Shown piece after piece: positions 8,611 through 39,177 of a DNA stretch of 64,000 bases. The DNA lies in contig NZ_LT838272.1 of NCBI RefSeq assembly GCF_900176005.1, forward strand, positions 1,631,587 through 1,695,586. The letters run 5' to 3'. The stretch's first letter is position 1. Every line of letters begins with the position of its first letter. Both the position numbers and the translations under genes were made by a program. This stretch comes from Thermanaeromonas toyohensis ToBE. Its GTDB lineage: Bacteria > Bacillota > DSM-521 > Neomoorellales > Neomoorellaceae. Under the pieces are notes generated by a model. It did no database searches, was not told the DNA's origin, and was given only the letters and a program-made list of their open reading frames with translations.

Positions 8611-8649
8611 GGGGAGGTGGGGCGCTCCTTCAGGGGCGCCGCAGTAATG
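8611..8649 (+). promoter_or_regulatory. SD-hairpin-start element 1
   Basis: SD GGGGAGGTG at 8611-8619. Arms GGCGCTCC (8621-8628) and GGGGCGCC (8633-8640) pair over 8 bp with one G-T and a TTCA loop. ATG is at 8647. The true SD-ATG distance is 27 nt; with the hairpin looped out it is 7 nt. Confidence 0.65.
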
Positions 8650-9054
8650 AATTTGAACCTGAACCTGGCGGAACTCAGCCTGGACGAACTGAAGGCGCTG
8701 TCGGCTGCTGTAGCGGAAGAAATAAAACGCCGTTTAAGGGTCGGAGAAGGAATAGAAATCGTGCTGGAGACTGACGGGTGGTACGACCCGCGCAAGAACG
8801 GCGGGGCATACGTGGCAATTGTCAGGGACAGGCCCGGCGGCGGAGTAGAAAGAGAATTTGTAGACCCAGTTCAGAAGGTGTATGACAGCAAGCGCCGGAA
8901 GTACCGCGCCAAGTGGGTGTTCAGGGCGCTGCCCGGGACACGGATAGAGGCGCGCATCAGGAGCGGGTCGTGGAGAAACGAGCACCGCGACTACTACGTT
9001 GTGGGCCCGGACGGCTTGCGGGAAGCATCACAGGGAGAAGTCTTGGGGCTGTAA
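8647..9054 (+). CDS. Hypothetical protein
   Basis: A 135-residue product. A helical N-terminus (ELSLDELKALSAAVAEEIKRRL) of the kind seen in small DNA-associated or dimerising proteins is followed by a basic beta-rich domain. ATG 8647 has no SD in the usual place; the SD is beyond the hairpin. The in-frame ATG 8587 has no SD at all. No family recognised. Confidence 0.72.
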   Translation: MNLNLNLAELSLDELKALSAAVAEEIKRRLRVGEGIEIVLETDGWYDPRKNGGAYVAIVRDRPGGGVEREFVDPVQKVYDSKRRKYRAKWVFRALPGTRIEARIRSGSWRNEHRDYYVVGPDGLREASQGEVLGL

Positions 9055-9077
9055 GTCTTTTAGGGGGGACCTTAAGG

Positions 9078-9455
9078 ATGGGGTGCTCTTACACGCTTTC
9101 AGGGAAGATCAAGATGAGCAGGTGGGCGTGCGAAGTTCTTAAGGAAAGTACAATCGGCTTTCCCGACGACCCTATTCCGGTAGTTGAGTATGTCAAGATA
9201 GAATATCTCGACGGCCAAGGGCAGGTATATCTGTTCAGGCAAGGCACGGAGTGCTGGGATGAGTGGCTTGACGAGGAACTGGTAGCGCTGATAGCGCGGT
9301 TGAAGGATCGCCCGGGTATAGACTTCCTTGATTGCAAAGGGAAGGATCTTGAAGATTTTGGGCGGTTTTATATTGACTGTGGCCGCTGGTGCTACGTGGG
9401 GGCGGAAATTCCTCCGGTTCCTCCTGGAGACGATCCGCGCTGGCAGAAAGTTTAG
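9078..9455 (+). CDS. Hypothetical protein, three-member family, member 2
   Basis: A 125-residue paralogue of the proteins at 7920 and 9469, with the shared block GRFYIDCGRWCYVGAEIPP. ATG 9078 has AGGGGGGACC about 10 nt upstream. It lacks the long C-terminal extension of member 1. Function unknown. Confidence 0.75.
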   Translation: MGCSYTLSGKIKMSRWACEVLKESTIGFPDDPIPVVEYVKIEYLDGQGQVYLFRQGTECWDEWLDEELVALIARLKDRPGIDFLDCKGKDLEDFGRFYIDCGRWCYVGAEIPPVPPGDDPRWQKV

Positions 9456-9468
9456 GGAGGCATTCTGA

Positions 9469-9906
9469 ATGCCAACGACGAACCTGATGGGTTACCGTTC
9501 TCTGCTGGGCGGGACAATCAGAATGACGAAAACAGCATACGAAAGGCTTAGAAGGGCTATTAAAAGAGAAGTCGTAACGCCCAACGGATCCACTGGGGTA
9601 GGGGAGTATCTTGATTTTGCGTACCGCGATGGGGTGCTGTACGTCCGCGGCAGCAATACTACCCGGGATAATCTTTTTGATAGGGTAGTAGGACTTCTAG
9701 CGCGCTGTAAAGATATAGATGGCATAGATAAACTTGACCATATGGACCTTAATGATGGCATTCCGGGTCGGTTTGGGCGGTACTACGTTGATTGCGGGCA
9801 GTGGTGTTATGTGGCGGGTAAAATACCCGGGCCACCGCGCGCTGGTAGCCGCGCGTGGAATGAAGCAAAACTTCCCAAGATGATCTTTTTGGTGAAATGG
9901 AGGTAA
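9469..9906 (+). CDS. Hypothetical protein, three-member family, member 3
   Basis: A 145-residue paralogue with YRSLLGGTIRMTKTA near the N-terminus and GRYYVDCGQWCYVAGKIP near residue 110. ATG 9469 follows TTAGGGAGG, 13 nt after the stop of member 2. The strongly conserved Trp-Cys-Tyr core in all three suggests a structural or binding site, but there is no family match to name. Confidence 0.75.
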   Translation: MPTTNLMGYRSLLGGTIRMTKTAYERLRRAIKREVVTPNGSTGVGEYLDFAYRDGVLYVRGSNTTRDNLFDRVVGLLARCKDIDGIDKLDHMDLNDGIPGRFGRYYVDCGQWCYVAGKIPGPPRAGSRAWNEAKLPKMIFLVKWR

Positions 9907-9937
9907 GGCTAACAGGCTGATACGGGAAGGATGTTCT

Positions 9938-9983
9938 GCATGCGGGGGCGCTGCTTGAGTGGTGGAGGCGGCGCCCCGCATGC
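9938..9983 (+). other. Long intergenic hairpin
   Basis: GCATGCGGGGGCGC (9938-9951) pairs with GCGCCCCGCATGC (9971-9983), one G bulged. No T tract follows (TGTAAAAACAACC), and the next SD, GGAGGGG, is downstream of it. It may be an mRNA-stabilising or attenuating structure. Confidence 0.6.
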
Positions 9984-10015
9984 TGTAAAAACAACCAGGA
10001 GGGGAGCAAACTGTC

Positions 10016-10567
10016 GTGCACCTTAAAGACCTTAAGGTTAAAAACCTGTCGGCTGCGGCCATCTATGCCCAGCCGGCGTATTACAACTGGGACGAACACG
10101 ACGGGGAGTGGTACGTAGTATATCCGGTGTACGGTGAAGGACTCGAGGACGAAAACGTTTACGAGCCGATGATGAACTATTATTATCCACTCCCGCGTGT
10201 TGCAGGAGACCCGAAGCGGCTTGCAAATATCCTGCATCAGAAACACCTTCCGTTAGCGCTGGTATGTTTCCCAGAAACCAAGAGCTATGCGTTAGCCCTC
10301 ACGGCGGGCGGTATGGATCTCACGTGGGAAATTTGCTTCGGATACATTCTGGCGGGCTATTTGCCACCATTTTATTTCTGTGATTTACCCCAATATCCGG
10401 GAATGAGAGCAAATGGTTGGCGGCGGCTGGTGCTGAGCGCCTGCCGCAGGACGTGCCAGATTATAAAAAGGCAGGCTGCGTCCAGGCTTTATTATCTAAA
10501 AGCTGAACGTTTTTTCGGGAACACAAGGAAGAATACCGAACGGGAGGTGATGGCACCCGGGGCTTAA
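10016..10567 (+). CDS. Hypothetical protein
   Basis: A 183-residue product from GTG 10016 with GGAGGGG about 10 nt upstream. The first half is Tyr/Trp-rich (NYYYPLPRVAG); the C-terminal third is basic with Cys residues (SACRRTCQIIKR). Its last codons and stop (TAA 10565) lie inside the hairpin that precedes the next gene, so translation of this gene would melt that hairpin. Function unknown. Confidence 0.72.
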   Translation: MHLKDLKVKNLSAAAIYAQPAYYNWDEHDGEWYVVYPVYGEGLEDENVYEPMMNYYYPLPRVAGDPKRLANILHQKHLPLALVCFPETKSYALALTAGGMDLTWEICFGYILAGYLPPFYFCDLPQYPGMRANGWRRLVLSACRRTCQIIKRQAASRLYYLKAERFFGNTRKNTEREVMAPGA

Positions 10568-10588
10568 AACCCGGGTGCCGGTTTTATG
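10542..10588 (+). promoter_or_regulatory. SD-hairpin-start element 2
   Basis: SD GGGAGGTG at 10542-10549. A perfect 10-bp stem pairs GGCACCCGGG (10552-10561) with CCCGGGTGCC (10570-10579), with an 8-nt loop holding the upstream gene's TAA. ATG is at 10586. The true spacing is 36 nt; looped-out spacing is 8 nt. Confidence 0.7.
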
Positions 10589-10945
10589 GGCCGGTTGAGG
10601 AAGATGGGGAGGAACCCCTATTTCGGCCGGTGGCCGATGGATGACGACCCGGCTGACTGTTTTGAGATAGGGCCGGGCAACCTTATGTGGGACCTGCGCA
10701 CGACCGAAAGGAAGGTCCTGCCGTGCACCGTCACAGTCGGGGGCTTTGTGGTTAAAGATGTGTACTTCCCCCGGGAAAAGACAGCCGCCCGGATAAAGGA
10801 GATGGCCCGGGAGGCAGTGGGGGTCTACGGGCGCAGGAGCCCTGAAGAGTATCCGGTTCCAAAAGGCGTAAAGGAGCGGTATGTGCAGTACTTCCGCTAC
10901 TGCATAGCGAAACTGCTTGCTGGTGAAGGGGGCGGGCTGCGTTGA
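10586..10945 (+). CDS. Hypothetical protein
   Basis: A 119-residue product from ATG 10586, which lies directly after the SD-hairpin element. It has a basic N-terminus (MGRLRKMGRNPYFGRW) and a helical, basic C-terminus. It overlaps the next gene by 4 nt, indicating coupling. No family recognised. Confidence 0.72.
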   Translation: MGRLRKMGRNPYFGRWPMDDDPADCFEIGPGNLMWDLRTTERKVLPCTVTVGGFVVKDVYFPREKTAARIKEMAREAVGVYGRRSPEEYPVPKGVKERYVQYFRYCIAKLLAGEGGGLR

Positions 10946-11484
10946 GCGACGCGCTGACCGATATTCGAAGGGATGAAGTGCTGGCCTCCCTGAGAAGGGA
11001 ACTCCGCAGGAAGGAAAGGGAGTTCATGGCGGAGCCTTCTCGTGAAAAAGCGGAAGAGCTGTTTTTGCTGTGGAAGAAATATTACCGGTCTCCGCACGGC
11101 TACTGGAGCGGCCCCAACAGGATGATGGCGCTCGAGCGCCTGGCCTTCTATCACGGGTGGACGCCGGAGAAGGGGCTGGGGCCGCTGCCGGCGTACTACC
11201 GGCCGAAAGATGTTGCGTTTATAGAGTTCGGGGCGGGGTTCATTTCAAATAGCTCCGCCCTCGAGGACCTGGTGGCGGACGCTATAAGGCGTGCATTTGG
11301 GGGGCCGGTAAACTACGCGAAGTATTTGGTAAAAATCACTGTAGAACCGCTCAAAAAAGTGTCGTGCGGGGAATGCCGGCTGTTCAGTGATTACTGCGGC
11401 TCCCTGCACTGCGAATCCAAGAGCCTTGACGAACTGAGGAAGAGGATTGCGGACGCGAAGTCCGCGGAAGGTCTTGTAAGGTAA
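10942..11484 (+). CDS. Hypothetical protein with C-terminal Cys cluster
   Basis: A 180-residue product starting at TTG 10942, overlapping the previous stop (TTGA). The N-terminal half is helical and charged. The C-terminus carries CGECRLFSDYCGSLHCES near residues 143-160, a four-Cys cluster likely to bind zinc or iron. No family recognised. Confidence 0.7.
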   Translation: MSDALTDIRRDEVLASLRRELRRKEREFMAEPSREKAEELFLLWKKYYRSPHGYWSGPNRMMALERLAFYHGWTPEKGLGPLPAYYRPKDVAFIEFGAGFISNSSALEDLVADAIRRAFGGPVNYAKYLVKITVEPLKKVSCGECRLFSDYCGSLHCESKSLDELRKRIADAKSAEGLVR

Positions 11485-11497
11485 AGGAGAGGTACTG

Positions 11498-11689
11498 TTG
11501 CTGTTTAATGTCTATGTCATGGGAAGCATTCAAGTTGAGGTTGAGACTGCCGAGGATGCTATAAAACGCGCTCGTGATGAGTTTGAACGCCGTCTTCGAG
11601 AAAACCTTTCTGCGTTTATGCAGGCGATTACTGTCGAGGAAGATACTCTCCTTAACCGTACCGATTACTATGATTTGCTCAACCGATGA
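11498..11689 (+). CDS. Small hypothetical protein
   Basis: A 63-residue product from TTG 11498 (AAAGGAGAGG upstream). A beta strand pair at the N-terminus (LFNVYVMGSIQVEVETAEDA) is followed by a long charged helix. It resembles small phage proteins of unknown role. It lies in the same run as its neighbours. Confidence 0.6.
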   Translation: MLFNVYVMGSIQVEVETAEDAIKRARDEFERRLRENLSAFMQAITVEEDTLLNRTDYYDLLNR

Positions 11690-11717
11690 ACCGAGAGACT
11701 TTCCCTCAAACAAACAT

Positions 11718-11763
11718 AAGGAGGTGAGCAGCGCTCGGGTTAATCCCGGGCGCCCTGCTTGTG
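11718..11763 (+). promoter_or_regulatory. SD-hairpin-start element 3
   Basis: SD AAGGAGGTG at 11718-11726. Stem GCGCTCGGG (11731-11739) with CCCGGGCGC (11745-11753), 9 bp with one wobble and a TTAAT loop. GTG start at 11761. Real spacing is 34 nt; looped-out spacing is 11 nt. The start is independently supported by the family-typical MGYTHYW N-terminus, and no other SD is near it. Confidence 0.72.
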
Positions 11764-12393: not shown

Positions 12394-12416
12394 TACCCGC
12401 GTTGGAGGGGACGCCG

Positions 12417-12734
12417 GTGAAGGATGTTCTGGTTACGACCCCTGTCCAGCTGTTCTACTGGCTGGACAGGGGCGAGGTTGTAATGGCGGACGCTCCGCTG
12501 TTCAAGGTGCTGTTCTGGCGCTCGCAGGGGAGGTACCACATGGTGGTACAGCCCGGGTTCGCCACGGCGCTGGAGGTAACCACTCCCGAGCGGCGGGACG
12601 TGGAGCGGATGTTCAAATTCTGGTCGGACAGGGTTGAGTTTTTTGTGTCTCTGGGCGCGCGGGTAGGGAGCGAACCTGCTCCCTGGTGGAAGAAAGCTGT
12701 GGGGCGGCTGTGGTGGAAGCTCATGGGGGTCTGA
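12417..12734 (+). CDS. Hypothetical protein
   Basis: A 105-residue product. GTG 12417 is chosen because GGAGGGG lies about 7 nt upstream; TTG 12402 would place the SD inside the gene. Short alternating beta strands are followed by a basic, Trp-rich C-terminus (APWWKKAVGRLWWKLMG) that could contact membrane or nucleic acid. No family recognised. Confidence 0.68.
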   Translation: MKDVLVTTPVQLFYWLDRGEVVMADAPLFKVLFWRSQGRYHMVVQPGFATALEVTTPERRDVERMFKFWSDRVEFFVSLGARVGSEPAPWWKKAVGRLWWKLMGV

Positions 12735-12769
12735 CTGCACAAGCCGCCTTCAAAAGGAGGCTATAGGGG

Positions 12770-14308: not shown

Positions 14309-14362
14309 GGCCCCGCAGCCTAAAACCGGACAGGAAATTTTACTGGCGGGAGGGGATAGGCC

Positions 14363-14974
14363 GTGGCGGTAAAGCCCTGCAGCGCTCCCGGTGAGGAATT
14401 GCCGGGCAGGTGTCATTACCGCAGCCCTGATGCGGTCGGGGTCCTTGGGGGAATGCTTCATCGTTACCTCGAGCGGCTCGGCTGCTTTGACGGGCGGCTG
14501 CTGGCAGTAGTCTGTGTGGGCTCGGCGGCCTGCCCGGGCGACGACCTGGGGCCAAAGGTCGGCAGCATACTGTTAGGGCTAGGTAGTCTGCCATTCGCGC
14601 TGTACGGTACTGCCAGCGACCCGGTCCACGCCGTAAACCTCGGGGAAAAACTGGCAGAACTGGAGCGCAAATGTCCGGGTGCGGCAGTGGTAGCGGTCGA
14701 TGCCTGTCTGGGGTGGCCCCGGGACGTGGGTATGATCACCGTGGGTCCGGGGCCGCTGGTGCCCGGGAGGGGGACGGGAAAGAAGCTGCCTGCTCTGGGA
14801 GACGTCTCGATAACCGGAACAGTCGGGGCATATGTTCACGATGCGTTCTTCAGCCTGTTAATAACAGACCCCGTTCTGGTCAAAGACCTGGCTGAATGTA
14901 TTGCAAAGATCATTTGTTTTGGGGTGGGTTTGGGCCGTGCTGCAGGCGAGTGCGGCATGGCCGCGAGTAGCTAG
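14363..14974 (+). CDS. YyaC/DUF1256-like protein
   Basis: A 203-residue protein matching the layout of the YyaC (DUF1256) family, which is related to hydrogenase-maturation and GPR-type proteases and is usually encoded by endospore formers. Visible features are VCVGSAACPGDDLGPKVG near residue 50, LYGTASDPVHAVNL near 80, AVVAVDACLGWPRDVG near 112 and GPGPLVPGRGTGKKLP near 128. GTG 14363 follows GGGAGGGGAT. Finding it on a mobile element is unusual; it could affect host spore formation, but its biochemical role is unknown even in the chromosomal family. Confidence 0.85.
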   Translation: MAVKPCSAPGEELPGRCHYRSPDAVGVLGGMLHRYLERLGCFDGRLLAVVCVGSAACPGDDLGPKVGSILLGLGSLPFALYGTASDPVHAVNLGEKLAELERKCPGAAVVAVDACLGWPRDVGMITVGPGPLVPGRGTGKKLPALGDVSITGTVGAYVHDAFFSLLITDPVLVKDLAECIAKIICFGVGLGRAAGECGMAASS

Positions 14975-15332: not shown

Positions 15333-15349
15333 CAGACGCGGCGGGGCGC

Positions 15350-15483
15350 TGTGCCCTGCCCGGGGTTCCGTACTCAGTGGGGCCGCGGGGAGGGCACAGT
15401 TGATTGTGCCGGTCCGCACGCGATGCGGGCGGCAGCCCAAAAATTTGGACCGGTCTCCCGTGCGGCGGAGACTGGCCAAACTA
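15350..15483 (+). repeat. Multi-hairpin intergenic element
   Basis: First stem TGTGCCCTGCCCGG (from 15350) with CCGCGGGGAGGGCACA (to 15398). A second large hairpin is closed by CCGGTCC/GGACCGG (about 15409-15466), and a third by GTCTCC/GGAGAC (about 15464-15483). It has the same CCCTGCC...GCGGGGAGGG outer stem as the elements at 18334, 26792, 31470 and 38075. Confidence 0.65.
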
Positions 15484-16802: not shown

Positions 16803-16843
16803 GAGGAGGTGAATGGCAGGCGCATCTGCCTGCCGGAGAGATG
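16803..16843 (+). promoter_or_regulatory. SD-hairpin-start element 4
   Basis: SD GAGGAGGTG at 16803-16811. Stem GGCAGGC (16815-16821) with GCCTGCC (16828-16834), 7 bp plus a T-G closing pair, GCATCT loop. ATG at 16841. Real spacing is 29 nt; looped-out spacing is 9 nt. GGAGAG also directly precedes the ATG, but with no spacer. Confidence 0.62.
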
Positions 16844-18313: not shown

Positions 18314-18333
18314 GTTTTGGTGTGGTCAGGGCG

Positions 18334-18392
18334 TTCTGCCCTGCCCGGAGCCCGTCCTGTAAAGCGGGGGTTGCGGGTAGGGCAGAATTTTT
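18334..18392 (+). repeat. Multi-hairpin element, terminator-like copy
   Basis: TTCTGCCCT-g-CCCG (from 18334) pairs with CGGG-t-AGGGCAGAA (to 18387), enclosing an inner AGCCC/GGGTT stem, and six T's follow. It has the recurring CCCTGCCCGG...GCGGGTAGGG layout, here with a T tract that would make it a rho-independent terminator for hicBA. Confidence 0.7.
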
Positions 18393-21645: not shown

Positions 21646-21693
21646 AGGGGGGTTGGGGAGGAGCTACCATGGTAGCCCCTCCCCGGACAAATG
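21646..21693 (+). promoter_or_regulatory. SD-hairpin-start element 5
   Basis: SD AGGGGGG at 21646-21652. A 14-nt arm pair GGGGAGGAGCTACC (21655-21668) / GGTAGCCCCTCCCC (21671-21684) has one mismatch. ATG at 21691. Real spacing is 38 nt; looped-out spacing is 8 nt. This is the longest stem of the set. Confidence 0.7.
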
Positions 21694-22037: not shown

Positions 22038-22268
22038 ATGGAGTACCGGGGGAAGGTCGTCAATCCGCGTGCGCCTGGCGGCATGACCGCTGGAGTGCTG
22101 ACAAAGCTCTTACAGCCCTACCGTCGAGCAGGGGTGCTAAAAATATCAAACGAAAGGGGTGATGAATTTTATTTGCCGGGTGGGGTCGTTGGGTGCATCC
22201 TACCAACCGGGAAGGAGGGGTTGGAGAAGCGGGTTGTAGCGGCCCGCTTTTCTGTTAGACATGTTTGA
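22038..22268 (+). CDS. Small hypothetical protein
   Basis: A 76-residue product from ATG 22038 with an ordinary SD (CAGGAGAAG). Gly-rich and basic. Its last 20 codons form one arm of the hairpin before the next gene, and the genes overlap by 8 nt, so its translation should open that hairpin. No family recognised. Confidence 0.62.
   Translation: MEYRGKVVNPRAPGGMTAGVLTKLLQPYRRAGVLKISNERGDEFYLPGGVVGCILPTGKEGLEKRVVAARFSVRHV
22211..22263 (+). promoter_or_regulatory. SD-hairpin-start element 6
   Basis: SD GAAGGAGGGG at 22211-22220. Stem AGAAGCGGG (22225-22233) with CCCGCTTTTCT (22243-22253), small bulge, 9-nt loop. ATG at 22261. Real spacing is 40 nt; looped-out spacing is 11 nt. Confidence 0.62.
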
Positions 22269-22488: not shown

Positions 22489-22541
22489 AGGACAGCCGGG
22501 CCTTCCTGCAGGCCCGCGAAATTTCCAATGATACAATGGAA

Positions 22542-22592
22542 GGGGTGATTTTGGAAAGCGGGCCCTCAGCGGGCCGCTTTCTCATAAGTATG
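22542..22592 (+). promoter_or_regulatory. SD-hairpin-start element 7
   Basis: SD GGGGTG at 22542-22547. Stem GAAAGCGG(g)CCC (22554-22565) with GGGCCGCTTTC (22571-22581), one bulge. ATG at 22590. Real spacing is 42 nt; looped-out spacing is 14 nt. The start is independently supported by the MGWTF N-terminus. Confidence 0.62.
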
Positions 22593-23210: not shown

Positions 23211-23268
23211 GGGAGGAGGGTTGGGGAAAGCGGGCCGCCGGGGGCCCGCGAGTACCCGGACAAAGATG
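23211..23268 (+). promoter_or_regulatory. Possible SD-hairpin-start element (weak)
   Basis: SD GGGAGGAGGG (23211-23220), stem GCGGGCC (23230-23236) with GGCCCGC (23243-23249), ATG 23266. Looped-out spacing stays 19-25 nt, so it fits the pattern poorly unless a second pairing forms. Confidence 0.35.
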
Positions 23269-23805: not shown

Positions 23806-23948
23806 TGCGATAAGGCAGGACTGGCGTAGCGGGCCATTAGACCTGCTACGCTGTTGGGCAAATGGTGTTGCCCATCACTGGCCTCACGGCTGAGGGGGCT
23901 GGTAGAAAAACATTTTGACTAAACGGGTCCAGAGAAATTCATGAAGAG
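23806..23948 (+). other. Intergenic region with two hairpins
   Basis: GCGTAGCGGG (23824-23833) pairs with CCTGCTACGC (23842-23851), and GGGCAA (23856-23861) with TTGCCC (23868-23873). No T tract, no gene and no clear promoter seen. Confidence 0.5.
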
Positions 23949-23995
23949 AAGGAGGTGATTGGGGCGGGCTCTGATGGCCCGTCCCCATTTAGATG
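23949..23995 (+). promoter_or_regulatory. SD-hairpin-start element 8
   Basis: SD AAGGAGGTG at 23949-23957. Stem GGGGCGGGC (23961-23969) with GCCCGTCCCC (23977-23986), one bulged T. ATG at 23993. Real spacing is 35 nt; looped-out spacing is 9 nt. No other SD is present. Confidence 0.7.
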
Positions 23996-25105: not shown

Positions 25106-25339
25106 ATGGAGTACCGGAATGCTGAGCGGTGCAGCGCCTGCGGCGGCAGGTGCTGCGCTATCTACCTTCCTGTGGAGGATGGCGGCATGTTTCCCGCCGG
25201 ATGGTACGGATTTGACGAGTGGGCCGAGGGCTGGTTCGACTACTTCGAGGAGTCCGGGGCACTCAACTGTGGTGTCCAGCTCCTTCATGACCCACTCGTT
25301 CTGCATATGGCCGACCATTGTCAGCGACCCCACGGCTAA
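25106..25339 (+). pseudogene. YkgJ-like Cys-rich protein, 3' end cut by IS insertion
   Basis: ATG 25106 (GGGGTGG upstream) begins a 77-codon frame with RCSACGGRCCAIYLP, the CxxCxxxCC motif of the YkgJ zinc/iron-chelating family. The homology should continue with further Cys, but the frame ends HCQRPHG at TAA 25337, inside the left end of the IsrB-bearing element. It is therefore probably a gene truncated by that insertion. The missing 3' part is not obvious downstream of 26768. Confidence 0.6.
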
Positions 25340-25357
25340 AGCCGGGCGCTTGTCGGT
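25329..25357 (+). repeat. Left subterminal repeat
   Basis: About 22 of 29 positions match the segment at 26738-26765 in direct orientation, by eye. Confidence 0.6.
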
Positions 25358-25364
25358 AATAACC

Positions 25365-25636
25365 TGGCAGCTTCCGCTTTAAGCGTGGGGTGGGATGGCG
25401 GTACTCCCAGCAACAGCTGACTAGACGGCGCCTCCATCTTAGGGGGCGCAGCCGCGCCGGGGAACTGAGAAGCGGTCCGGGGTATTTCGCAAGCCTCGGG
25501 GTGCCGCGGCAGAACCGCCTAATGCCTGAAACGTTACCCTGCGGCAGGAAACCGCAGGGGAGTTCTCCGGGCAGCGTCGATGCGACCGCAACCCTTTGGG
25601 GGCCGCAATCGGCACCCCGGAAGGGGGGAAAACGAA
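25365..25636 (+). ncRNA. HEARO / omega RNA of IsrB
   Basis: About 270 nt of highly structured, gene-free sequence ends at the isrB start. It begins TGGCAGCTTCCGCTTTAAG, similar to the start of known IscB omega RNA scaffolds (GGCTCTTCCAACTTTATG in OgeuIscB, from memory). Clear stems include CTGCGG/CCGCAG with a CAGGAAA loop (about 25539-25557) and CCGGGG-type pairs. In IscB/IsrB systems the guide is at the 5' end, so bases just upstream of 25365 (about 25346-25364) would be the guide. Confidence 0.85.
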
Positions 25637-26722
25637 ATGGAGTACGGAGTGTCAAGGAACGAAATAAGCAAAGCCTGTGCCTTGTATTTTTCGGAACGCA
25701 TTCCGGTGGTGTCGAAGGACGGCAGGCCGCTGATGCCGTGCCGTCCGGCCAAGGCACGGAAATTGCTTTCTTCCGGGAAGGCAGAGCCCCGCTGGTCCAA
25801 GTTGGGGCTGTTTTACATTCAGCTCAGAATAGACGTCAAATCAGAGTACAATGGCGGCGGCCAGAGCTTCGTACTGGCACACGACCCTGGTTCCAGGTTC
25901 GACGGGATGGCCCTGGGGTGCAAGTTCGTCCAGCTGCGGTTTATGGTCATCCTGCCGCAAAAGGTACCGGGTAAGATGAAGAACCGCCGGGAGCTGCGGC
26001 GGGGGAGGAGGTACCGCAACTGCCGCAGGCGTCCCTACCGGCCGAGGAGCCCCGGACCGTACTGGATAGGTCCTACGCAGCTGGCTAAGGTCCTCTTCCG
26101 GTTGGCGGTAGTAAGGGAACTGTGCTGCCTGTTTCCAATCTCTCATTTTATCGTGGAGGACGTACGGTTCAACCACTTCCGGTTCCGGCACGGGAAGCAT
26201 TTTTCCACAGCAGAAATTGGTAAGACGCGGTATTATTCAGAACTCCGCGGGCTGGGGGTTTTGGTCCGGGTGGAAGGTTGGCAGACAAAGTTGTGGCGTG
26301 AGGGTGTCGGGTTGGAGAAGGTTACCCGGAAGGATGCGTTAATTCTCGGTTCTCATGCGAACGACGCCGTGGCCATGCTCTGGGGGCTGGCTGGCTGCGG
26401 GGTGAACGAGGGTGCTCCGTTTTACGTGCTGCGCCGGCCGGAATTCGCAAGGCGGAGCCTTCACCGGCAGAACTTCCAGAAAGGCGGCGTGCGACCCCTG
26501 TTTGGTGGGACGAGCAACGGTGATTTTCTGAGGAAGGGGGACTACGTAGAAGTGGAGAGAGCGGGAAAAGTTAACCGCGGTTGGGTGTGCGGGCTACCCA
26601 CGGAGACGACCCCGCTTGTGGGGGTCATGGACGCCAGGGGTGTACGTATTGGCCAGTTTGCGCCTAGGAAGGTGCGCCTGCTGCAACGGGGGCACAACAT
26701 TCTTTGGGAGAGGGTAATTTAA
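25637..26722 (+). CDS. isrB: IsrB, OMEGA RNA-guided nickase (RuvC only)
   Basis: A 361-residue protein with the IsrB order of domains: PLMP motif at residues 31-34; RuvC-I HDPGS with Asp83; Arg-rich bridge helix about 113-132; RuvC-II HFIVED with Glu174; RuvC-III SHANDA with His240 and Asp243; then a C-terminal TAM-interacting region (LRKGDYVEVE, about 295 onward). Only about 65 residues separate RuvC-II from RuvC-III, so the HNH domain that defines IscB is absent. IsrB, the proposed ancestor of IscB and Cas9, nicks the non-target strand guided by the omega RNA. All RuvC residues look intact. ATG 25637 follows GGAAGGGGGG. About 20 residues precede the usual PLMP start. Confidence 0.95.
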   Translation: MEYGVSRNEISKACALYFSERIPVVSKDGRPLMPCRPAKARKLLSSGKAEPRWSKLGLFYIQLRIDVKSEYNGGGQSFVLAHDPGSRFDGMALGCKFVQLRFMVILPQKVPGKMKNRRELRRGRRYRNCRRRPYRPRSPGPYWIGPTQLAKVLFRLAVVRELCCLFPISHFIVEDVRFNHFRFRHGKHFSTAEIGKTRYYSELRGLGVLVRVEGWQTKLWREGVGLEKVTRKDALILGSHANDAVAMLWGLAGCGVNEGAPFYVLRRPEFARRSLHRQNFQKGGVRPLFGGTSNGDFLRKGDYVEVERAGKVNRGWVCGLPTETTPLVGVMDARGVRIGQFAPRKVRLLQRGHNILWERVI

Positions 26723-26766: not shown

Positions 26767-26791
26767 CCGAAGTTTTGTTGAACGGGCGGGG

Positions 26792-26881
26792 CGCGTACCC
26801 TGCCCAGACCGCAGGTGGAACGCATCTGCGGTGCGGGGAGGGTACGATGCCCGGGTGTCCGACCACGCGATGGGCGGGCAC
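26792..26881 (+). repeat. Multi-hairpin intergenic element
   Basis: GTACCCT-gCCC (from 26795) pairs with GGGgAGGGTAC (to 26845) around an inner ACCGCAG/CTGCGGT stem. A second hairpin, GTGTCCG...CGGGCAC, is at 26855-26881. Same layout as the elements at 15350, 18334, 31470 and 38075. Confidence 0.7.
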
Positions 26882-28218: not shown

Positions 28219-28234
28219 CATGAAGGGGGTGGAG

Positions 28235-28277
28235 AAGGTGCGGGCGGGATATTAACCCGCCCGGCCTGATATTTATG
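28235..28277 (+). promoter_or_regulatory. SD-hairpin-start element 9
   Basis: SD AAGGTG at 28235-28240 (GAAGGGGGTGG further up). Perfect stem CGGGCGGG (28241-28248) with CCCGCCCG (28256-28263), 7-nt loop. ATG at 28275. Real spacing is 34 nt; looped-out spacing is 11 nt. Confidence 0.6.
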
Positions 28278-29493: not shown

Positions 29494-29510
29494 AGTATTC
29501 GATCGAAGAA

Positions 29511-29552
29511 GGGGGGAGGGGAGCGGCTTTAAAAGCCGCTCCAGCGCTTATG
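29511..29552 (+). promoter_or_regulatory. SD-hairpin-start element 10
   Basis: SD GGGGGGAGG at 29511-29519. Stem GGAGCGGCT (29520-29528) with AGCCGCTCC (29534-29542), then 7 nt to ATG 29550. Real spacing is 30 nt; looped-out spacing is 7 nt. Its presence is the main reason to call the small frame at 29550. Confidence 0.6.
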
Positions 29553-29639
29553 ACTATAGCGGCGCTGCACACAAAACGCATAGAATGCATTCCCACGGAG
29601 GAGCGGTACCCGGTGAGCGTCTATGGCGGTAGTAGTTAA
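29550..29639 (+). CDS. 29-residue small ORF upstream of rnhA-like gene
   Basis: ATG 29550 to TAA 29637-29639, product starting MTIAALHTKRIECIPTEER. Its stop lies 17 nt inside the RNase H-like gene, so ribosomes finishing here could re-initiate at ATG 29623. It may be a leader peptide coupling the two. Too short to recognise. Confidence 0.5.
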   Translation: MTIAALHTKRIECIPTEERYPVSVYGGSS

Positions 29640-30822: not shown

Positions 30823-31458
30823 ATGACGCATGCAATGGTAAAGAAGCTGGCGGATGAGATAGCAAAAATAACCAGACTGTTGCCGGGGTGGGAGGTGGTG
30901 CACAGTGGCGGCGGAATCATCATGGCTGTGAGGGATTTCGAACTGAGTTGCGACGGTCAGAAGTGCCTGGCCGGGGTTAGCGTGGACGATGATGCTGCTG
31001 TAGCGTACAGGGCGGGCAGCACCTGGCTCAGGGCCGGCGACATTATCCCGTCTTTGGGCTGCCTGGGGGAAGACGTAGATGAAGTGGTGCTGGTGGCGAG
31101 CAACGGGAAGAGGCGCCAGTATCCCGGGGCTGACCTGCTGTCTTTTGGTGACGTCCTGGAAATAGAGAAGGCGATGGACGTCCTTGGCGGCGTCAGTTTT
31201 AACGGTGCAAAACTGGAGACCCGGTGCCCCGCATGCGGGGTGGAGGGTGTGAGAGTGCTGTTGGTCGATGGGTACCTTGAGGGGTATAACGGCAATGTAT
31301 ATTTCTGCTGTCCTGGCGAAGGGCGGTCGGTACCGCTGTTTGATGCGGGGCTCGACGTACGCGTTCCCGGCCGCTGCGGCAGCTGCGGGCACCAGGGGAA
31401 CATAGGAGACTTCGTAATCATAGTGCGGGAAAGGGAACGGGAAGAGGAAACGGCGTAA
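30823..31458 (+). CDS. Hypothetical protein with zinc ribbons
   Basis: A 211-residue product from ATG 30823 (GGGGAGGAG upstream). Residues about 135-200 contain CPACG, FCCPG and CGSCGHQG, two or more zinc knuckles. The N-terminal part is mixed alpha/beta. The extreme C-terminus is charged (VREREREEETA). No family recognised. Confidence 0.74.
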   Translation: MTHAMVKKLADEIAKITRLLPGWEVVHSGGGIIMAVRDFELSCDGQKCLAGVSVDDDAAVAYRAGSTWLRAGDIIPSLGCLGEDVDEVVLVASNGKRRQYPGADLLSFGDVLEIEKAMDVLGGVSFNGAKLETRCPACGVEGVRVLLVDGYLEGYNGNVYFCCPGEGRSVPLFDAGLDVRVPGRCGSCGHQGNIGDFVIIVREREREEETA

Positions 31459-31469
31459 TGGTGGGGCGG

Positions 31470-31597
31470 CACGCCCCGCCCGGAGCCCCTCTATGAGGGG
31501 GGGGCTGCGGGGAGGGTGTGAAAGCCTGAGTACTGGGACCGCATGACGGCCCCAGTATAAGCAAAGAGCGGGCTCCCGGCAGGGAGCCAAAATTTTT
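31470..31597 (+). repeat. Multi-hairpin intergenic element with terminator
   Basis: First stem CACGCCCCgCCC (from 31470) with GGGgAGGGTGTG (to 31520) around an inner AGCCCCTC/GAGGGGGGGGCT stem. Second hairpin ACTGGG/CCCAGT (31532-31556). Third GGCTCCC/GGGAGCC (31571-31588) followed by AAAATTTTT, a likely terminator. Confidence 0.7.
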
Positions 31598-33231: not shown

Positions 33232-33253
33232 CCAGTCTGCCGGGAGTACCCTT

Positions 33254-34993: not shown

Positions 34994-35019
34994 CCAAAAA
35001 TTTAGGGAGGGAATAACTA

Positions 35020-36168
35020 ATGCAAATAGTTTGTAAGACTCGTGAGCTCAGAGAGGCAGTGGGCTTCGCCAAAAAGATGCTGCCCAAAGCTACAACCCTG
35101 CCGGTGCTGGAAGGCATTATGCTGGAAGCGCAGGGCGGGGAGTTCAGAATAATGGCGCATGATTTGGAGTGCGGCGTGATTTTAAAAGTCAGCGGTGCCA
35201 GAGTAGAAAAAGAGGGCCGGGCACTTGTCCCCGGCAAAGCTTTTTCCCTTCTGGTGGAAAAGTTTACTGCAGAGGAGACCGCGATAGACGCCTCGGACGG
35301 GAACGTAACTATACAGTGCGGGAGCAGCAGGGCCGAACTGACAGGAATGGACCCGGACCTGTACCCCGAACTTCCTTCCCAGCAGGAGTACAGAGAGGTC
35401 GTTGTTGTTTTAGAAGAGCTCCTGCCCGCCCTGCGGGAGACTTTCAGCTTTACGAACCCCTCGGGGTGGGAAGCCTACGTGCGCTCCGTGCTGTGGGAGG
35501 TAGAAGAAGAGGACGTGCTGAACCTGGTCGCCACGGATACACACCGGTTGGTCGTGAGGAGGGTGCCGGGAGTGAAAACGGGAGGGACGCGCGGAGCCTG
35601 GCTGCTTCCCGTAGCTGGTCTGGCGAGGATGGCGGGCGTGCTCAGCGGTTCTACCGGGCATGCGGCCGTAAGGTTTTCCGAGAACTTTGCCCGGATTATC
35701 ACCGCTGGTGGGGCGTTCTACATGAGGCTGCTGTCAGGCTCCTACCCTCCGTACCGCCAGGTAATTCCACGAGAAGACGCCCCGGTTTCTGTAGTGGTCG
35801 ATGCTGGCGTCCTGCGCTCAGCCCTGGAGCGTGCAAGAGTTCTTAAGCAGGGCAGCAAGGACGACCCGGTGGTGATGATCGCGCCGGTAGCAGGGGCTGA
35901 CGTGTTGACGGTCAAGACCGTCAGGTGCGAGTACGGTGCGCTGGAGGAGGTGCTGGAAGCTGAAGTCCGGGGCGGAAGCGGGTTCCCGGTATATCTCAAC
36001 AGCAAGTACCTCCTCAGCGCCCTGAGGGGTGCCAGCGACAGGGTGGTGCTTGACATTTATGCACCGCTGAAGCCGGTCGTGGTGAGGCGTGCCGGCAGTG
36101 AGGACTACCTTGCCCTGGTGCTGCCCGTGAGGGTCCCGGAAACGGAGGCTGCTGAGAAATGCGCGTAG
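35020..36168 (+). CDS. dnaN: DNA polymerase III beta subunit (sliding clamp)
   Basis: A 382-residue beta clamp, normal length for the family, with three repeated domains: MQIVCKTRELREAVGFAKKM start, FRIMAHDLECGVILKV, TDTHRLVVRR near 175, SGSYPPYRQVIP near 240 and FPVYLNSKYLLSAL near 325. It forms a ring that tethers polymerase to DNA. It ends LPVRV followed by an additional 9-residue tail rather than the canonical end. A second, element-encoded clamp beside a primase suggests partly self-sufficient replication. ATG 35020 follows TAGGGAGGG; a terminator precedes it. Confidence 0.95.
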   Translation: MQIVCKTRELREAVGFAKKMLPKATTLPVLEGIMLEAQGGEFRIMAHDLECGVILKVSGARVEKEGRALVPGKAFSLLVEKFTAEETAIDASDGNVTIQCGSSRAELTGMDPDLYPELPSQQEYREVVVVLEELLPALRETFSFTNPSGWEAYVRSVLWEVEEEDVLNLVATDTHRLVVRRVPGVKTGGTRGAWLLPVAGLARMAGVLSGSTGHAAVRFSENFARIITAGGAFYMRLLSGSYPPYRQVIPREDAPVSVVVDAGVLRSALERARVLKQGSKDDPVVMIAPVAGADVLTVKTVRCEYGALEEVLEAEVRGGSGFPVYLNSKYLLSALRGASDRVVLDIYAPLKPVVVRRAGSEDYLALVLPVRVPETEAAEKCA

Positions 36169-36722
36169 GTGTGGACTTGTGCAATACGGTTGCGGACGTA
36201 AACGCCTGCATAAAGGCTGCCCTGGGGCTCCCGGAGGGTTATACCTTCCGGGAGTACAGCATGCGGGCAGTAGGTGTACGCGATAAGGTCGGGTGGTTCA
36301 GGAAACACCCTGAAGTATTTGTGGAGGCACTCCCACTGCCAGGAGCTGTGGAAACACTGGAAAAACTGGCGGCATGCGGGGTCGAGATATGGTATGTTAC
36401 TTCAAGGCCCGTGTGGGCCAGGGAAATAACCCGAGACTGGCTAAAGAAATGGAGTTTCCCCAAAGGGGAACTCATAATGGAAGCCGACAAGGCCCGGGTG
36501 TACGAAAACCTGGGCCTTGACCTTTTCTTTGAGGACGCACCGGGAGAAATAGAGCGGCTGGAGCGGGCGGGTGCCAGGGTTGTCGCCGTGGCACAGCCGT
36601 ACAACAGGGGTGCCTTCCGGTGGGATGACACAGGGAGAGGGGGAGACCTTCTTGGTGTACTCTTACACTGCGCTGGAATGCTTTCAGGCGTGCCCCAGGC
36701 GGTTTTACTACCGGTACGTTGA
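36159..36722 (+). CDS. HAD-superfamily 5'-nucleotidase-like protein (NT5C type)
   Basis: A 187-residue HAD hydrolase. Motif I GVDLCNTVAD (nucleophile Asp5), motif II YVTSRP near 88 and motif IV LFFEDAP near 125 match the 5'(3')-deoxyribonucleotidase group. It probably removes phosphate from nucleotides and adjusts the dNTP pool with the kinase at 32692. It overlaps dnaN by 10 nt, and its last 22 codons overlap the nuclease gene. Confidence 0.82.
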   Translation: MRVGVDLCNTVADVNACIKAALGLPEGYTFREYSMRAVGVRDKVGWFRKHPEVFVEALPLPGAVETLEKLAACGVEIWYVTSRPVWAREITRDWLKKWSFPKGELIMEADKARVYENLGLDLFFEDAPGEIERLERAGARVVAVAQPYNRGAFRWDDTGRGGDLLGVLLHCAGMLSGVPQAVLLPVR

Positions 36723-37698
36723 ACGGATACCGGAGCCACCTTCTGAGGCAGTAGAGTTCGGCAGCGCGGTTCACGCAGCCGTGGCGGCTGGGCTGAGCGG
36801 CCGTGACCCCGAAGAAGCGGTGAGGCAGATGCCGCTGAAGGTTGTTATCGGGGAAAAGCTGGAAGAGGCAATAGACCTTGCGATGCGGTTCCTCAGGAGG
36901 TATTCGCCCCGCGGGGTGTACCTGGTGGAAGAGAAAGTAAAAGGGGTCATAGCCGGTGAGGAGTTCGTCGGCCGGCTGGACCTGGTGGAGACCGGTGACA
37001 CCACGGGGATTATCACCATCACCGATTTTAAGACCGACTGGGACAAGTACATGCCCACCGAAAAGATGCAGCTGCCGCTGTACGCGTACCTTTTTTTGTC
37101 GATGATGAACGAGAAGCCCAGGCCGGTGCAGGCCAGGCTGTGGTTCCTGAGGCACGCGAGGGAACCCGTGGCGGAAGAAACGCTCACTCCGGAGCACATG
37201 TCCAGAGCGGTCCAATGGGCTGAAGGAATAATAAAAGAGATCAGGGACGCCCTGGAGCTTCCCGGGTGGATGGGTTTTGACCCGGTTCCGGGGTCGTGGT
37301 GCAAGACCTGCGGCTATTCCTTCAACTGCCTGGACATTGCCGAGCCGCAGGACATAGTGGAGGCGGGGGCCCTGGCCCTGAGGCTGGAACGCGCGCTGGA
37401 CGTGCTGAAGACCCGGCTTAAGGAGCACGTAAGCGAGCACGGACCGCTGCAGGTGAGCGACCAGTACTGGGGGGACTATTCTTACAGCATCTGGAAGTTC
37501 CCCGACATCCAGGCGTTCATGGAGCTGCTCGCCGGAGCGGGGGAAGACCCCTGGGACTACATTGAAGTGAACGGTTCCAAGCTCAAGAAGCTGCTGAAGG
37601 GCCCGCTGGGCGAGCGGATAAGGCAGATCGGGGAGGAGAAGCCCCGGCACTATTTCACCCACCGGGAGAAGCCCCCTGGGAGCAGGGAAGAGGCATAA
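36655..37698 (+). CDS. PD-(D/E)XK nuclease, Cas4/AddB type with Fe-S cysteines
   Basis: A 347-residue RecB-family nuclease. YSYTALECFQACPRR at the N-terminus, GRLDLVE near 106 (catalytic Asp), ITDFKTD near 124 (Asp-x-Lys) and QLPLYAYLF near 140 form the catalytic core. Cys13 plus WCKTCGYSFNC (Cys216, 219, 225) match the four-Cys arrangement holding a 4Fe-4S cluster in Cas4 and AddB. Such enzymes process DNA ends in recombination or replication; no Cas genes are near. GTG 36655 has GGGAGAGGGGGAG about 9 nt upstream; ATG 36625 would overlap the nucleotidase gene by 98 nt. Confidence 0.88.
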   Translation: MYSYTALECFQACPRRFYYRYVERIPEPPSEAVEFGSAVHAAVAAGLSGRDPEEAVRQMPLKVVIGEKLEEAIDLAMRFLRRYSPRGVYLVEEKVKGVIAGEEFVGRLDLVETGDTTGIITITDFKTDWDKYMPTEKMQLPLYAYLFLSMMNEKPRPVQARLWFLRHAREPVAEETLTPEHMSRAVQWAEGIIKEIRDALELPGWMGFDPVPGSWCKTCGYSFNCLDIAEPQDIVEAGALALRLERALDVLKTRLKEHVSEHGPLQVSDQYWGDYSYSIWKFPDIQAFMELLAGAGEDPWDYIEVNGSKLKKLLKGPLGERIRQIGEEKPRHYFTHREKPPGSREEA

Positions 37699-37733
37699 GC
37701 CTGGCAGTGGAGCGGACAGTGCAGGGGTTTTAC

Positions 37734-37778
37734 GCCCTGCCTCCGGTCCCTGCTGTACGGGGACTGCGGCAGGGCGCA
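37734..37778 (+). repeat. Multi-hairpin-type intergenic element (single stem)
   Basis: GCCCTGCC (37734-37741) pairs with GGCAGGGC (37768-37775) around an inner GGTCCC/GGGACT stem, with unpaired TGC on the right side as in the other copies. Confidence 0.6.
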
Positions 37779-37812
37779 AGGCCTGCAGGTGCGTGGCAGG
37801 GAGGGACCTGGC

Positions 37813-38058
37813 GTGGCCAGCAAGACCGGAAAGAGGCGCCGCAAGAAAGACAAGAAGAAGGGTGTGGATGCCAGAACATCCCTTTTGGAGCCGGCATGGC
37901 TGCCCGACGGCAGGTACGTGTGCCCCAAATGTATGAAGCGAGAAACGCTCTGTATTATTGATTACGGCCTGGCCAAGAACCGCTCGAGGGGGATGTTCTG
38001 GTTTCTGGTGCAGTGCCAGGAATGCGACGTAAAATTTAGGGTTCAGAAGGACGTGTAG
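37813..38058 (+). CDS. Small zinc-binding hypothetical protein
   Basis: An 81-residue product from GTG 37813 (GGGAGGGA upstream). Very basic first 20 residues (ASKTGKRRRKKDKKKG) are followed by VCPKCMKRE and VQCQECDVKF, a four-Cys zinc ribbon. It probably binds nucleic acid. Confidence 0.72.
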   Translation: MASKTGKRRRKKDKKKGVDARTSLLEPAWLPDGRYVCPKCMKRETLCIIDYGLAKNRSRGMFWFLVQCQECDVKFRVQKDV

Positions 38059-38074
38059 GGCAGGGAGGTCTCCA

Positions 38075-38159
38075 GTGCCCTGCCCGGGGCCCTTAAGCGG
38101 AAAGAAGGGCTGCGGGGAGGGCGCGAAAACCGGCGTGCTGTACGCGATACAGTCACGCC
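38075..38159 (+). repeat. Multi-hairpin intergenic element
   Basis: GTGCCCTgCCC (from 38075) pairs with GGGgAGGGCGC (to 38124) around an inner GGCCCTT/AAGGGCT stem. A second hairpin, GGCGTG/CACGCC with inner TGTA/TACA, is at 38132-38159. It closely matches the element at 31470. Confidence 0.7.
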
Positions 38160-38212
38160 TGCAAAAACTGTCGCACCCGGAAAGTTAAAACCTGATGGGA
38201 GGAGGGGTTTTC

Positions 38213-38527
38213 ATGGCTGTCCTTTGGGTGTCGCGGAAATTTAACGAGCCCGACCCGCTCAAAGCGACACTCGAGTCGCTGAAGCAGGCCTTTGTAGAGA
38301 CCCGAGCCCGAAAGCTCGGGTTAAAAACAGAATACACCGTTGTAGGGGATTGCATCGAGCTCGCTGTGGAAGGGAACAGTGGTGCAATCTCTGCACTGCT
38401 CAAAGAGATTTATGAGGAGACAGGGATGTGTGGCTTTGTAGTAGACGTTGAAGCGCAAGAAGAGCGCAAGGAGCTGGACAAAGTGGTGAGTACGCCTATC
38501 ATTTTGGCCGAAGTGGTGGATATATAG
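38213..38527 (+). CDS. Hypothetical protein
   Basis: A 104-residue product from ATG 38213 (GGAGGAGGGG upstream). Helix-strand pattern (DPLKATLESLKQAFVETRAR; YTVVGDCIELAVEG; ALLKEIYEETGMCGFVVDV). It shares an overall 'small alpha/beta with CGFVV' flavour with the C-terminal GLGGFTVLL part of the 17331 product, but homology is not clear. Unknown function. Confidence 0.7.
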   Translation: MAVLWVSRKFNEPDPLKATLESLKQAFVETRARKLGLKTEYTVVGDCIELAVEGNSGAISALLKEIYEETGMCGFVVDVEAQEERKELDKVVSTPIILAEVVDI

Positions 38528-38603
38528 TTGTGCTGGCTGAGTATCAGGAGACAGCTGTTCTGAAGGAGGGAGGGGGCGGCCTGCAACGGCTCACTGTGAT
38601 GAA

Positions 38604-38954
38604 ATGGCTGCTTTTAAAGCCGGTATAATAGATTTTGACCTTGGATTGAGAGCTAGTTACATCATTGAAGCCCCTGATCCTGGGGTAGCGGAGAGCGCCC
38701 TGGAAAGGTGGCTTGAGGGGAAAACATGGAAGCTTTCTTTCCTGAAAAGAGTGGGCGGGGCCGGATTTTGCCCTGATCTGATAGTGGAAGAGGTGACACG
38801 GGTGTGCCCCATGTGCAGCAGCAGCTTTGTCATACGCATACCCCTGCATATCGGAGACGGCCCCCGGACTATTTGTCTGGGATGCGGTAGGAATTTCGGT
38901 GCTGTTTTCACCGGACCGGGGCAGTCGCATTGCGCCCTTGGCCGAGGTTCTTGA
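38604..38954 (+). CDS. Hypothetical zinc-knuckle protein
   Basis: A 116-residue product from ATG 38604. GAAGGAGGG lies 33 nt upstream, with only a weak 4-bp hairpin between, so the start is uncertain (ATG 38599 is out of frame). VCPMCSSSF near 67 and ICLGCGRNF near 90 form a zinc ribbon. No family recognised. Confidence 0.62.
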   Translation: MAAFKAGIIDFDLGLRASYIIEAPDPGVAESALERWLEGKTWKLSFLKRVGGAGFCPDLIVEEVTRVCPMCSSSFVIRIPLHIGDGPRTICLGCGRNFGAVFTGPGQSHCALGRGS

Positions 38955-39133
38955 ACGGAGCGGCACTGTTGCTGGCGGTAGCGCTTTAAGCAAGCCACAT
39001 TTGTCGTTGCACGGTGTTTGACCTGTTTCCATCGCCAGTTGGTATGGTTATGGCCGAAGATGAAACGCAGGCCGCGCGGGAATGCGACGTTCCGGTGCGT
39101 GGCCTTTTAGCCCCCTAAAGATAGTTTTTGGAA

Positions 39134-39177
39134 GGGAGGTGCGGGAGCGGACGTATTAACGTTCGCTCCGTACAATG
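39134..39177 (+). promoter_or_regulatory. SD-hairpin-start element 11
   Basis: SD GGGAGGTG at 39134-39141. Stem GGAGCGGACGT (39144-39154) with ACGTTCGCTCC (39159-39169), 11 bp with one wobble and an ATTA loop. ATG at 39175. Real spacing is 33 nt; looped-out spacing is 7 nt. Confidence 0.72.

Follow-up and report, generated by a model that had tools for sequence, protein, structure and literature searches.

The stretch of DNA considered here (the window: 64,000 nt, G000:C1:1631587-1695586 in our notation) comes from Thermanaeromonas toyohensis ToBE, the genome of which (G000) is a single contig of 3.33 Mb. Pfam assigns its proteins to, among others, a type IV secretion system (T4SS) coupling protein, AAA and VWA proteins, a beta clamp, a Gp3-like recombination directionality factor, an RNase H and a PD-(D/E)XK nuclease, and identifies upstream of it a tyrosine recombinase, a ParB-like protein, a DUF6744 protein and MoxR/VWA proteins. 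The window and its upstream flank belong to an element resembling integrative and conjugative elements (ICE-like). At twelve starts in the window a hairpin lies between the Shine–Dalgarno sequence (SD) and the start codon. A thirteenth such site (L002:16861) is situated ~23 kb upstream of the window, and its protein resembles ArdC-like proteins from other hairpin clusters (43-44% over ~100 amino acids). The sites within the window are as follows, together with the gene for the coupling protein; covariance-model matches are described below.

8609..8649, plus strand: ATG start at 8647; SD GGGGGGAGGTGG; hairpin arms 8618-8628 and 8633-8643
10542..10588, plus strand: ATG start at 10586; SD GGGAGGTGAT; hairpin 10551-10561 and 10570-10580; covariance-model match
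11718..11763, plus strand: GTG start at 11761, MGYTHYW protein; SD AAGGAGGTGA; hairpin 11731-11739 and 11745-11753
16803..16843, plus strand: ATG start at 16841; SD GAGGAGGTGA; hairpin 16814-16822 and 16827-16835
21646..21693, plus strand: ATG start at 21691; SD AGGGGGGT; hairpin 21654-21667 and 21672-21685
22203..22263, plus strand: ATG start at 22261; SD GGGAAGGAGG within a P1-like stem (see below), CCAACC/GGTTGG; hairpin 22223-22236 and 22240-22253
22524..22592, plus strand: ATG start at 22590, MGWTF protein (DUF6927); SD AAGGGGTGAT, P1-like stem TCCAA/TTGGA; hairpin 22553-22564 and 22571-22582
23211..23268, plus strand: ATG start at 23266, MGQYHIVV protein, the additional twelfth site; SD GGGAGGAGG; compound hairpin, inner stem 23230-23236 and 23243-23249
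23948..23995, plus strand: ATG start at 23993; SD GAAGGAGGTGAT; hairpin 23961-23970 and 23976-23985; covariance-model match (training site)
28223..28277, plus strand: ATG start at 28275; SD AAGGGGGTG or AGAAGGTG; hairpin 28241-28248 and 28256-28263
29507..29552, plus strand: ATG start at 29550, with an open reading frame (ORF) of 29 codons only that overlaps the RNase H start at 29623; SD AGAAGGGGGG; hairpin 29520-29529 and 29533-29542
39130..39177, plus strand: ATG start at 39175, AAA ATPase; SD GGAAGGGAGGTG; hairpin 39144-39154 and 39159-39169; covariance-model match (training site)
43151..45118, plus strand: conjugative coupling protein (T4SS-DNA_transf, Pfam), in the same element as the hairpin sites

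An earlier note on this DNA had described a strong SD, a hairpin and a start codon at eleven of these starts, and a mechanical scan for an SD followed by a stem of ≥7 bp (loop 3-10 nt) and a start codon that opens a frame recovers all of them on the plus strand of the window and none on the minus strand, placing 22261 at an overlapping TTG 4 nt further on; 23266 and L002:16861 are further sites. The same scan gives three matches in a chromosome sample of 16 × 20 kb searched on both strands; in the flanks it finds L002:16861 upstream and L004:8835 (a weak GTG) downstream. Stretch L005 has a single, weak match, a TTG at L005:8288. A second, stricter scan, which allowed loops of up to 26 nt, finds 11 plus-strand sites and no minus-strand site in a 72-kb stretch of the element, namely, ten of the eleven listed starts (28275 dropped out) and L002:16861. 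Block-wise Markov shuffling of the element (60 shuffles) leaves a mean of 0.53 sites and a maximum of 2, and the chromosome sample (640 kb of strand, without flank stretches L002-L005) contains four; at that rate, the Poisson chance of at least 11 sites is 2.5 × 10−12. One chromosomal match (L019), read by eye, falls within a coding frame. As further controls, 20 other contigs of Fervidicola (323 kb, both strands) give two matches, and 360 kb of genome G286 give three, two of which are the hairpin sites of that genome. A loose scan based on minimum free energy proved too noisy (44 matches on the plus strand of the element, none on the minus strand and 118 in 640 kb of host strand), and all counts are therefore taken from the stem-score scans. 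Given the shuffles, the minus strand and the chromosome sample, a chance origin was rejected. Intrinsic terminators, which should have a T-rich tail directly after the stem, were likewise rejected: even a loose terminator pattern picks out just two of the 12 window hairpins, at 10551-10580 and at 22561-22575, and leaves ten without a match. A leader-peptide explanation, entertained because stop codons are often seen by eye in the AT-rich loops, was dropped on account of inconsistent reading frames. Rfam yields no match at the hairpin sites of the window (E up to 1), and none at gathering scores at the sites in stretches L283, L284, L286 and L293.

The 48 nt preceding each of the eleven starts folds at −15.6 to −28.1 kcal/mol, with a hairpin in every case. 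Measured from the last G of the AGGAGG equivalent, the linear gap between SD and start codon is 29-45 nt at these sites; once the hairpin is removed, 3-14 nt remain at ten of them, whereas 28275 retains 22 nt with its far SD. For a 19-site anatomy set (12 sites from the window, one upstream, four from Fervidicola and two from G286) the linear gap is 29-55 nt (mean 39.4), and the effective gap that the predicted hairpin would leave averages 10.8 nt (range 3-26); the outliers, 22 and 26, come from 28275 and 23266, where a weak SD lies closer or the hairpin is compound. For ordinary genes that have a strong SD no more than 20 nt away, the median gap is 8 nt, whether they come from the chromosome sample (78 of 210 ORFs, minimum length 200 amino acids) or from the element (28 of 80, minimum length 100 amino acids). 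From hairpin to start, the gap is mostly 3-11 nt and the local SD score just 1-4. The SD is thus too far from the start codon in the absence of structure, as in phage T4 genes 25 and 38 (22-27 nt), and the predicted hairpin would restore a usable spacing (5-11 nt in T4). With as much as 90 nt of upstream and 40 nt of downstream sequence included in the fold, mean pair probability for the named stem reaches 0.5 or more at 17 of the 19 sites, at both 37 and 65 °C; at the remaining two, another register had been named, and both form hairpins when the interval itself is folded. As regards the earlier note, the comparison with the host chromosome that it proposed reveals only a few chance-like matches in the sample.

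The pairing is conserved in relatives. In two covariation alignments (A3 and A4), 98.8% and 97.5% of cells, respectively, are paired and the covariation score exceeds all 500 shuffles, while the number of pairs changed on both sides is equalled by 2 and 9 of 500 shuffles; since these sites were picked for pairing, the counts overstate independence, and some homologues are without the hairpin. The arms of the hairpin following the SD (P2) fit their own partners better than in any of 2000 partner permutations, again in a set chosen for pairing. Stems are GC-rich and stable, and mostly of 8-12 bp.

One such case is the MGYTHYW gene, which has a match in 3 of 398 genomes of the phylum (G000; G133, at the same place as L081; and G286) and carries the hairpin in all three, with unrelated arms. 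Its homologues L081:9137 and L126:18251 keep the hairpin with arms that differ from those at 11761. At the Fervidicola ferrireducens gene (61% identity), one of 19 loci found in the genome_contigs collection, the SD-hairpin-start order is present, as it is at three more genes on its 14-kb contig. No match to the protein was found in 100 relatives apart from its own genome, whereas IMG/VR supplied 21 loci and, in a later search, 251 with alignment, of which 80 were kept. Judged by eye, the printed leaders of these homologues mostly have an ordinary SD a few nt 5' of the same methionine, and a few have no SD. At the 11 viral loci of the MGWTF gene (22590), no scan match falls at these genes, and six printed leaders are without a hairpin; two homologues in G466 (one confirmed by Pfam) do have one, with arms that share the GCGGGCC core seen in the window. 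For MGWTF and ArdC-like genes, the hairpin is retained across genomes with arms that are partly shared. Among viral contigs, no relatives turned up for the Gp3-like protein or for the VWA protein of Fervidicola. As MGYTHYW and MGWTF homologues begin at the same methionine, most of them behind an ordinary SD, the starts at 11761 and 22590 are supported, in agreement with the earlier note, which had taken them as fixed by protein families. Its view that base pairing is what is kept is borne out by the MGYTHYW leaders of the three genomes; its statement that all arms differ is mostly right, except that several share the GCGGGCC core.

Two observations on individual leaders may be added. In G194, two different genes have SD-hairpin leaders that are nearly letter-identical (L233:396-437 and 1339-1380), which suggests that leaders spread by duplication. 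In Candidatus Fermentithermobacillus carboniphilus (L092), SD-hairpin-ATG-like leaders at 9168-9210 (found by covariance model) and ~10600-10653 (found by eye) flank a MGYTHYW-like gene, the N-terminal part of which looks disrupted; the frame behind the first leader has only 23 codons.

To follow the leaders beyond the window, covariance models were built. A MAFFT alignment of the sites (A1) misaligned the arms, so the first model (R1) was derived from nine sites trimmed to one geometry. Searched against the whole of G000, its four best matches lie in the element and are all training sites, the top one being that at 16841; nothing elsewhere scores as high, and three other training sites of the window are not recovered. 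A pattern search with one arm sequence found nothing in this genome. Among the 398 genomes of the phylum, 14 have a match to R1 at E ≤0.1, and inspection showed clusters or further sites in seven of them (G000, G008, G010, G194, G283, G286 and G368); in the other seven, a convincing cluster was not confirmed on inspection. A second model (R2), built on 19 natural sites from these seven genomes, G133 and L092, matches 18 of the 398 genomes at E ≤0.02, seven of which are training genomes; of the 11 new ones, 10 are confirmed by scan and G160 is not. Within the class to which G194 belongs, 23 of 113 genomes have an R2 match at E ≤0.1 (22 without G194, a training genome), often as tight clusters on the same strand. 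We fetched 20 stretches around such matches from 15 of the 23 genomes, besides G194; each of them, chosen for its covariance-model matches, holds 2-8 hairpins on one strand, with a total of 97 scan matches that represent 94 hairpins. The 91 distinct leaders (88 hairpins) have a mean linear gap of 36.4 nt and a predicted effective spacing of 10.1 nt on average (standard deviation 3.3), mostly 7-11 nt. Scans over more than 40 genomes were run under stricter filters, such that their counts are lower bounds. That the arrangement is a general scheme, as the earlier note had surmised, is supported by its presence in many related mobile elements.

The hairpins also keep company with conjugation genes. 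Relatives of the coupling protein (E ≤1e-30) occur in 15 genomes of what is, to judge by its handles, the same sample of 398, and seven genomes have both hairpin and coupling-protein relative (p = 5.6 × 10−7; 5.8 × 10−6 without G000); with all training genomes removed, the co-occurrence is 4 of 11 (p = 1.5 × 10−4). In G000, G118, G189 and G352 a single contig carries both, with ~4-8 kb between the hairpin and the coupling gene, and hairpin genes are found near a coupling protein in L293 and near tyrosine recombinases in L286. The genes behind the hairpins encode ArdC-like, RadC, SSB, Mu Gam-like, RNase H, DUF6094 methyltransferase, PD-(D/E)XK nuclease, DUF6927 and AAA proteins, and many have no Pfam match; as a set, they would seem to resemble the establishment or leading-region repertoire of conjugative elements.

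In a large class of leaders, a second stem (P1) flanks the SD, so that the SD core sits in the P1 loop and P2 follows directly; examples of P1 stems are CCATTTCC/GGGAATGG, CTCACTTC/GAGGTGAG, CCAATCATC/GGTGATTGG and CCGTTCTC/GGGAACGG. A consensus fold by RNAalifold of 64 leaders aligned with MAFFT told little (−10.0 kcal/mol), and a permutation test was used instead, on the 81 ATG leaders that remained of the 97 scan matches after removal of GTG and TTG starts and duplicates; P1 had not been selected for. None of 2000 permutations equalled the own partners (mean 9.59, against 8.77 for the best permutation). A letter-shuffle test is weaker per site (mean 8.04 versus 5.96; mean p 0.286). In smaller sets, 25 of 2000 permutations are as good for eight G010/G194 leaders and 214 of 2000 for the 12 leaders of the T. 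toyohensis element, the latter not significant; P1-like stems are present in this element at 22261, 22590 and L002:16861. Many leaders have a further GC-rich palindrome (GGGCCGACCGGCCC or GGCGGCCCGGCCCGCC) 5' of P1, and in this sub-group both P1 and the extra palindrome lie within the last ~100 nt before the start. The left arm of P2 has its complement in the 3' strand of this palindrome, and the two might pair in a competing fold (P4), which in the large class scores marginally above the best permutation (12.32 versus 12.24), and for which 85 of 2000 permutations are as good in the T. toyohensis element and 1350 of 2000 in G010/G194.

The architecture, its concentration in elements, the effective spacing, the conservation of base pairs with turnover of the arms and the recurrence in many genomes are all computed directly. 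The fixed order of SD, hairpin, short gap and start codon, at a near-ordinary effective distance, favours bridging among the three roles that the earlier note had offered (bridge, shared switch or protein-binding site), and we consider it probable, if far from assured, that the leaders are split ribosome-binding sites bridged by a hairpin, a general translation scheme of conjugation-type mobile elements in Bacillota. The mRNA between SD and start codon would fold on its own and remain folded, reducing a linear gap of ~30-55 nt to an effective one of mostly 7-12 nt; the 30S subunit would then pair with the SD, and the start codon would be set in the P site with the hairpin looped out. By analogy with what is reported for T4 genes 25 and 38, the ribosome would accommodate the folded hairpin, which would help rather than repress translation. 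In a large sub-group, P1, a second covarying hairpin, would keep part of the SD in its loop and probably adds control. We counted in favour of bridging the enrichment by element and strand, as well as the homologues that have an ordinary SD before the same methionine. Several observations pull the other way. Folding in context leaves the SD incompletely accessible (mean unpaired probability 0.14-0.79) and at some sites engages the start codon in pairing (0.04-0.93). The effective spacing is confined by limits built into the scan. Many leaders of one class share GGGGCGGGCC/GGYCYGCCCC, which goes beyond the needs of bare pairing. Moreover, the hairpin is not required, since homologues elsewhere do without it: the G286 homologue of the AAA gene has none, and ArdC homologues on plasmids of Alicyclobacillus and Geobacillus have ordinary SDs instead. 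Finally, P1 takes up part of the SD in the large class, an arrangement that points to control more than to plain bridging.

P1 indeed makes regulation plausible too, and a role as a switch is compatible with bridging. That the leaders are primarily a shared translational switch, the P1-P2 leader being bound by an element or host protein or opened by an upstream ribosome, so that establishment and cargo genes are switched jointly, is the main rival and seems to us rather unlikely, although it would account for the covariation of the unselected P1 (0 of 2000 permutations as good; n = 81), for similar leaders at up to eight genes in one 20-kb stretch, and for the identity of the genes, as ArdC-like, RadC, SSB, methyltransferase and DUF6927 proteins are a set expected to be turned on after transfer. 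It sits less well with the T. toyohensis element, where a clear P1-like stem is seen at only three of 12 sites and the set is not significant, with the weak letter-shuffle result per site, with the great variety of arms and loops among the window's AGGAGGTGA-type sites, and with P4, which exceeds permuted partners marginally in one set and not in another; no common regulator gene was identified. A further reading, which we advance tentatively as a possibility, is that the two-hairpin leader, with the SD in the P1 loop and P2 bridging to the start, provides shared translational control of establishment and cargo genes in a large family of conjugative elements in Bacillota, the P2-only sites of the window being a simpler form.

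That the hairpin serves to process or stabilize the mRNA, as a site for a nuclease or a protective fold, its position between SD and start being secondary, is improbable. The stable GC-rich stems before many genes of a cluster speak for it; against it, cutting in the hairpin would part the SD from its gene, and the narrow effective spacing and fixed order of SD, stem and start would be left unexplained. We regard it as more improbable still that the palindromes act as DNA, for instance as promoters formed by hairpins, or as sites for priming, on the single strand that is transferred. The hairpin genes do resemble leading-region genes, and single-stranded promoters of conjugative plasmids are cited in the references of PMC8708921; yet a promoter downstream of the SD would give transcripts without it, and G-T cells far outnumber A-C cells (136 of 923 versus 3), as expected for sense RNA, although the scan permits G-T and penalises A-C. 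Least credible of all is that the starts are misassigned, the true ones lying upstream and the palindromes encoding N-termini. In-frame upstream starts are available at 8647, 22590, 23266 and the MGYTHYW gene of G286, but MGYTHYW and MGWTF homologues begin at the methionine assigned here (backing 22590 in spite of its alternative), nine of the 12 window sites have no in-frame upstream alternative, and the hairpin-bearing SSB and RNase H genes have starts that coincide with those of their Pfam families.

The element has other features of note. A DUF1256 protein, which we take to belong to a spore-protease family, is encoded at 14363-14974, and the gene adjoining that of the coupling protein (45978-47975) encodes 665 amino acids with a copper amine oxidase N-terminal domain and a weak match to glycosyl hydrolase 26. 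Within 25320-26722, a HEARO-like RNA (E 0.0079, under the gathering score) lies directly 5' of the gene for an RRXRR protein, presumably of IscB/IsrB type. Additionally, another structured element recurs in seven copies recognized by eye, a stem of ~53 nt with internal loops (GCCCTGCCCgg...gCGGGGAGGGC): six are in the window (~15338-15410, 18322-18392, 26783-26858, 31456-31526, 37723-37792 and 38056-38128) and one is outside (L003:12390-12470). At 12 of its 21 predicted pairs there is a compensatory change in at least one copy, and Rfam has no match at these copies.

Hairpins are familiar from early-transferred regions of conjugative plasmids, where Frpo and ssi serve as single-stranded DNA promoters of leading regions that carry anti-restriction genes; those are DNA promoters upstream of genes, whereas the hairpins described here lie between SD and start codon. 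Should the bridging interpretation be correct, gene-start prediction in such elements would change, and the leaders may reveal how the establishment genes of conjugative elements are coordinated once transfer has taken place. Our literature search, which covered open-licence PMC papers, brought up no account of such leaders as a widespread property of mobile elements and no description of the two-hairpin P1-P2 class. The EGeRS1 sequences of plasmid pLS20, as described in passages of PMC8708921, are repeated structured leaders at several establishment operons, including ardC; they differ in measuring 420-750 bp and lying immediately upstream of the ribosome-binding site, as opposed to a short hairpin 3' of the SD of single genes. 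In the split ribosome-binding site of Escherichia coli thrS, a long hairpin is said, in PMC3936740, to be accommodated by the ribosome without unfolding, but only one gene is concerned, and the 24-nt region next to the hairpin in its 5' untranslated region is single-stranded and essential, whereas here the hairpin lies between SD and start at many genes; the split motif of rpsA is mentioned as another literature case. The closest parallel is provided by T4 genes 25 and 38, where, according to passages of PMC3014915, structure shortens the gap between SD and AUG from 27 to 11 nt and from 22 to 5 nt, respectively, and destabilizing mutations reduce initiation. The likeness lies in the long gap and in the intervening structure that restores a usable distance. 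A structured gap has been treated as a rarity of T4, confined to two single genes in one phage group, whereas here it recurs at several genes per element and in many elements and genomes of Bacillota, with a sub-group that has a second hairpin around the SD, and thereby offers dozens of natural, sequence-diverse test cases of how the 30S subunit handles folded RNA between the SD and the P site.

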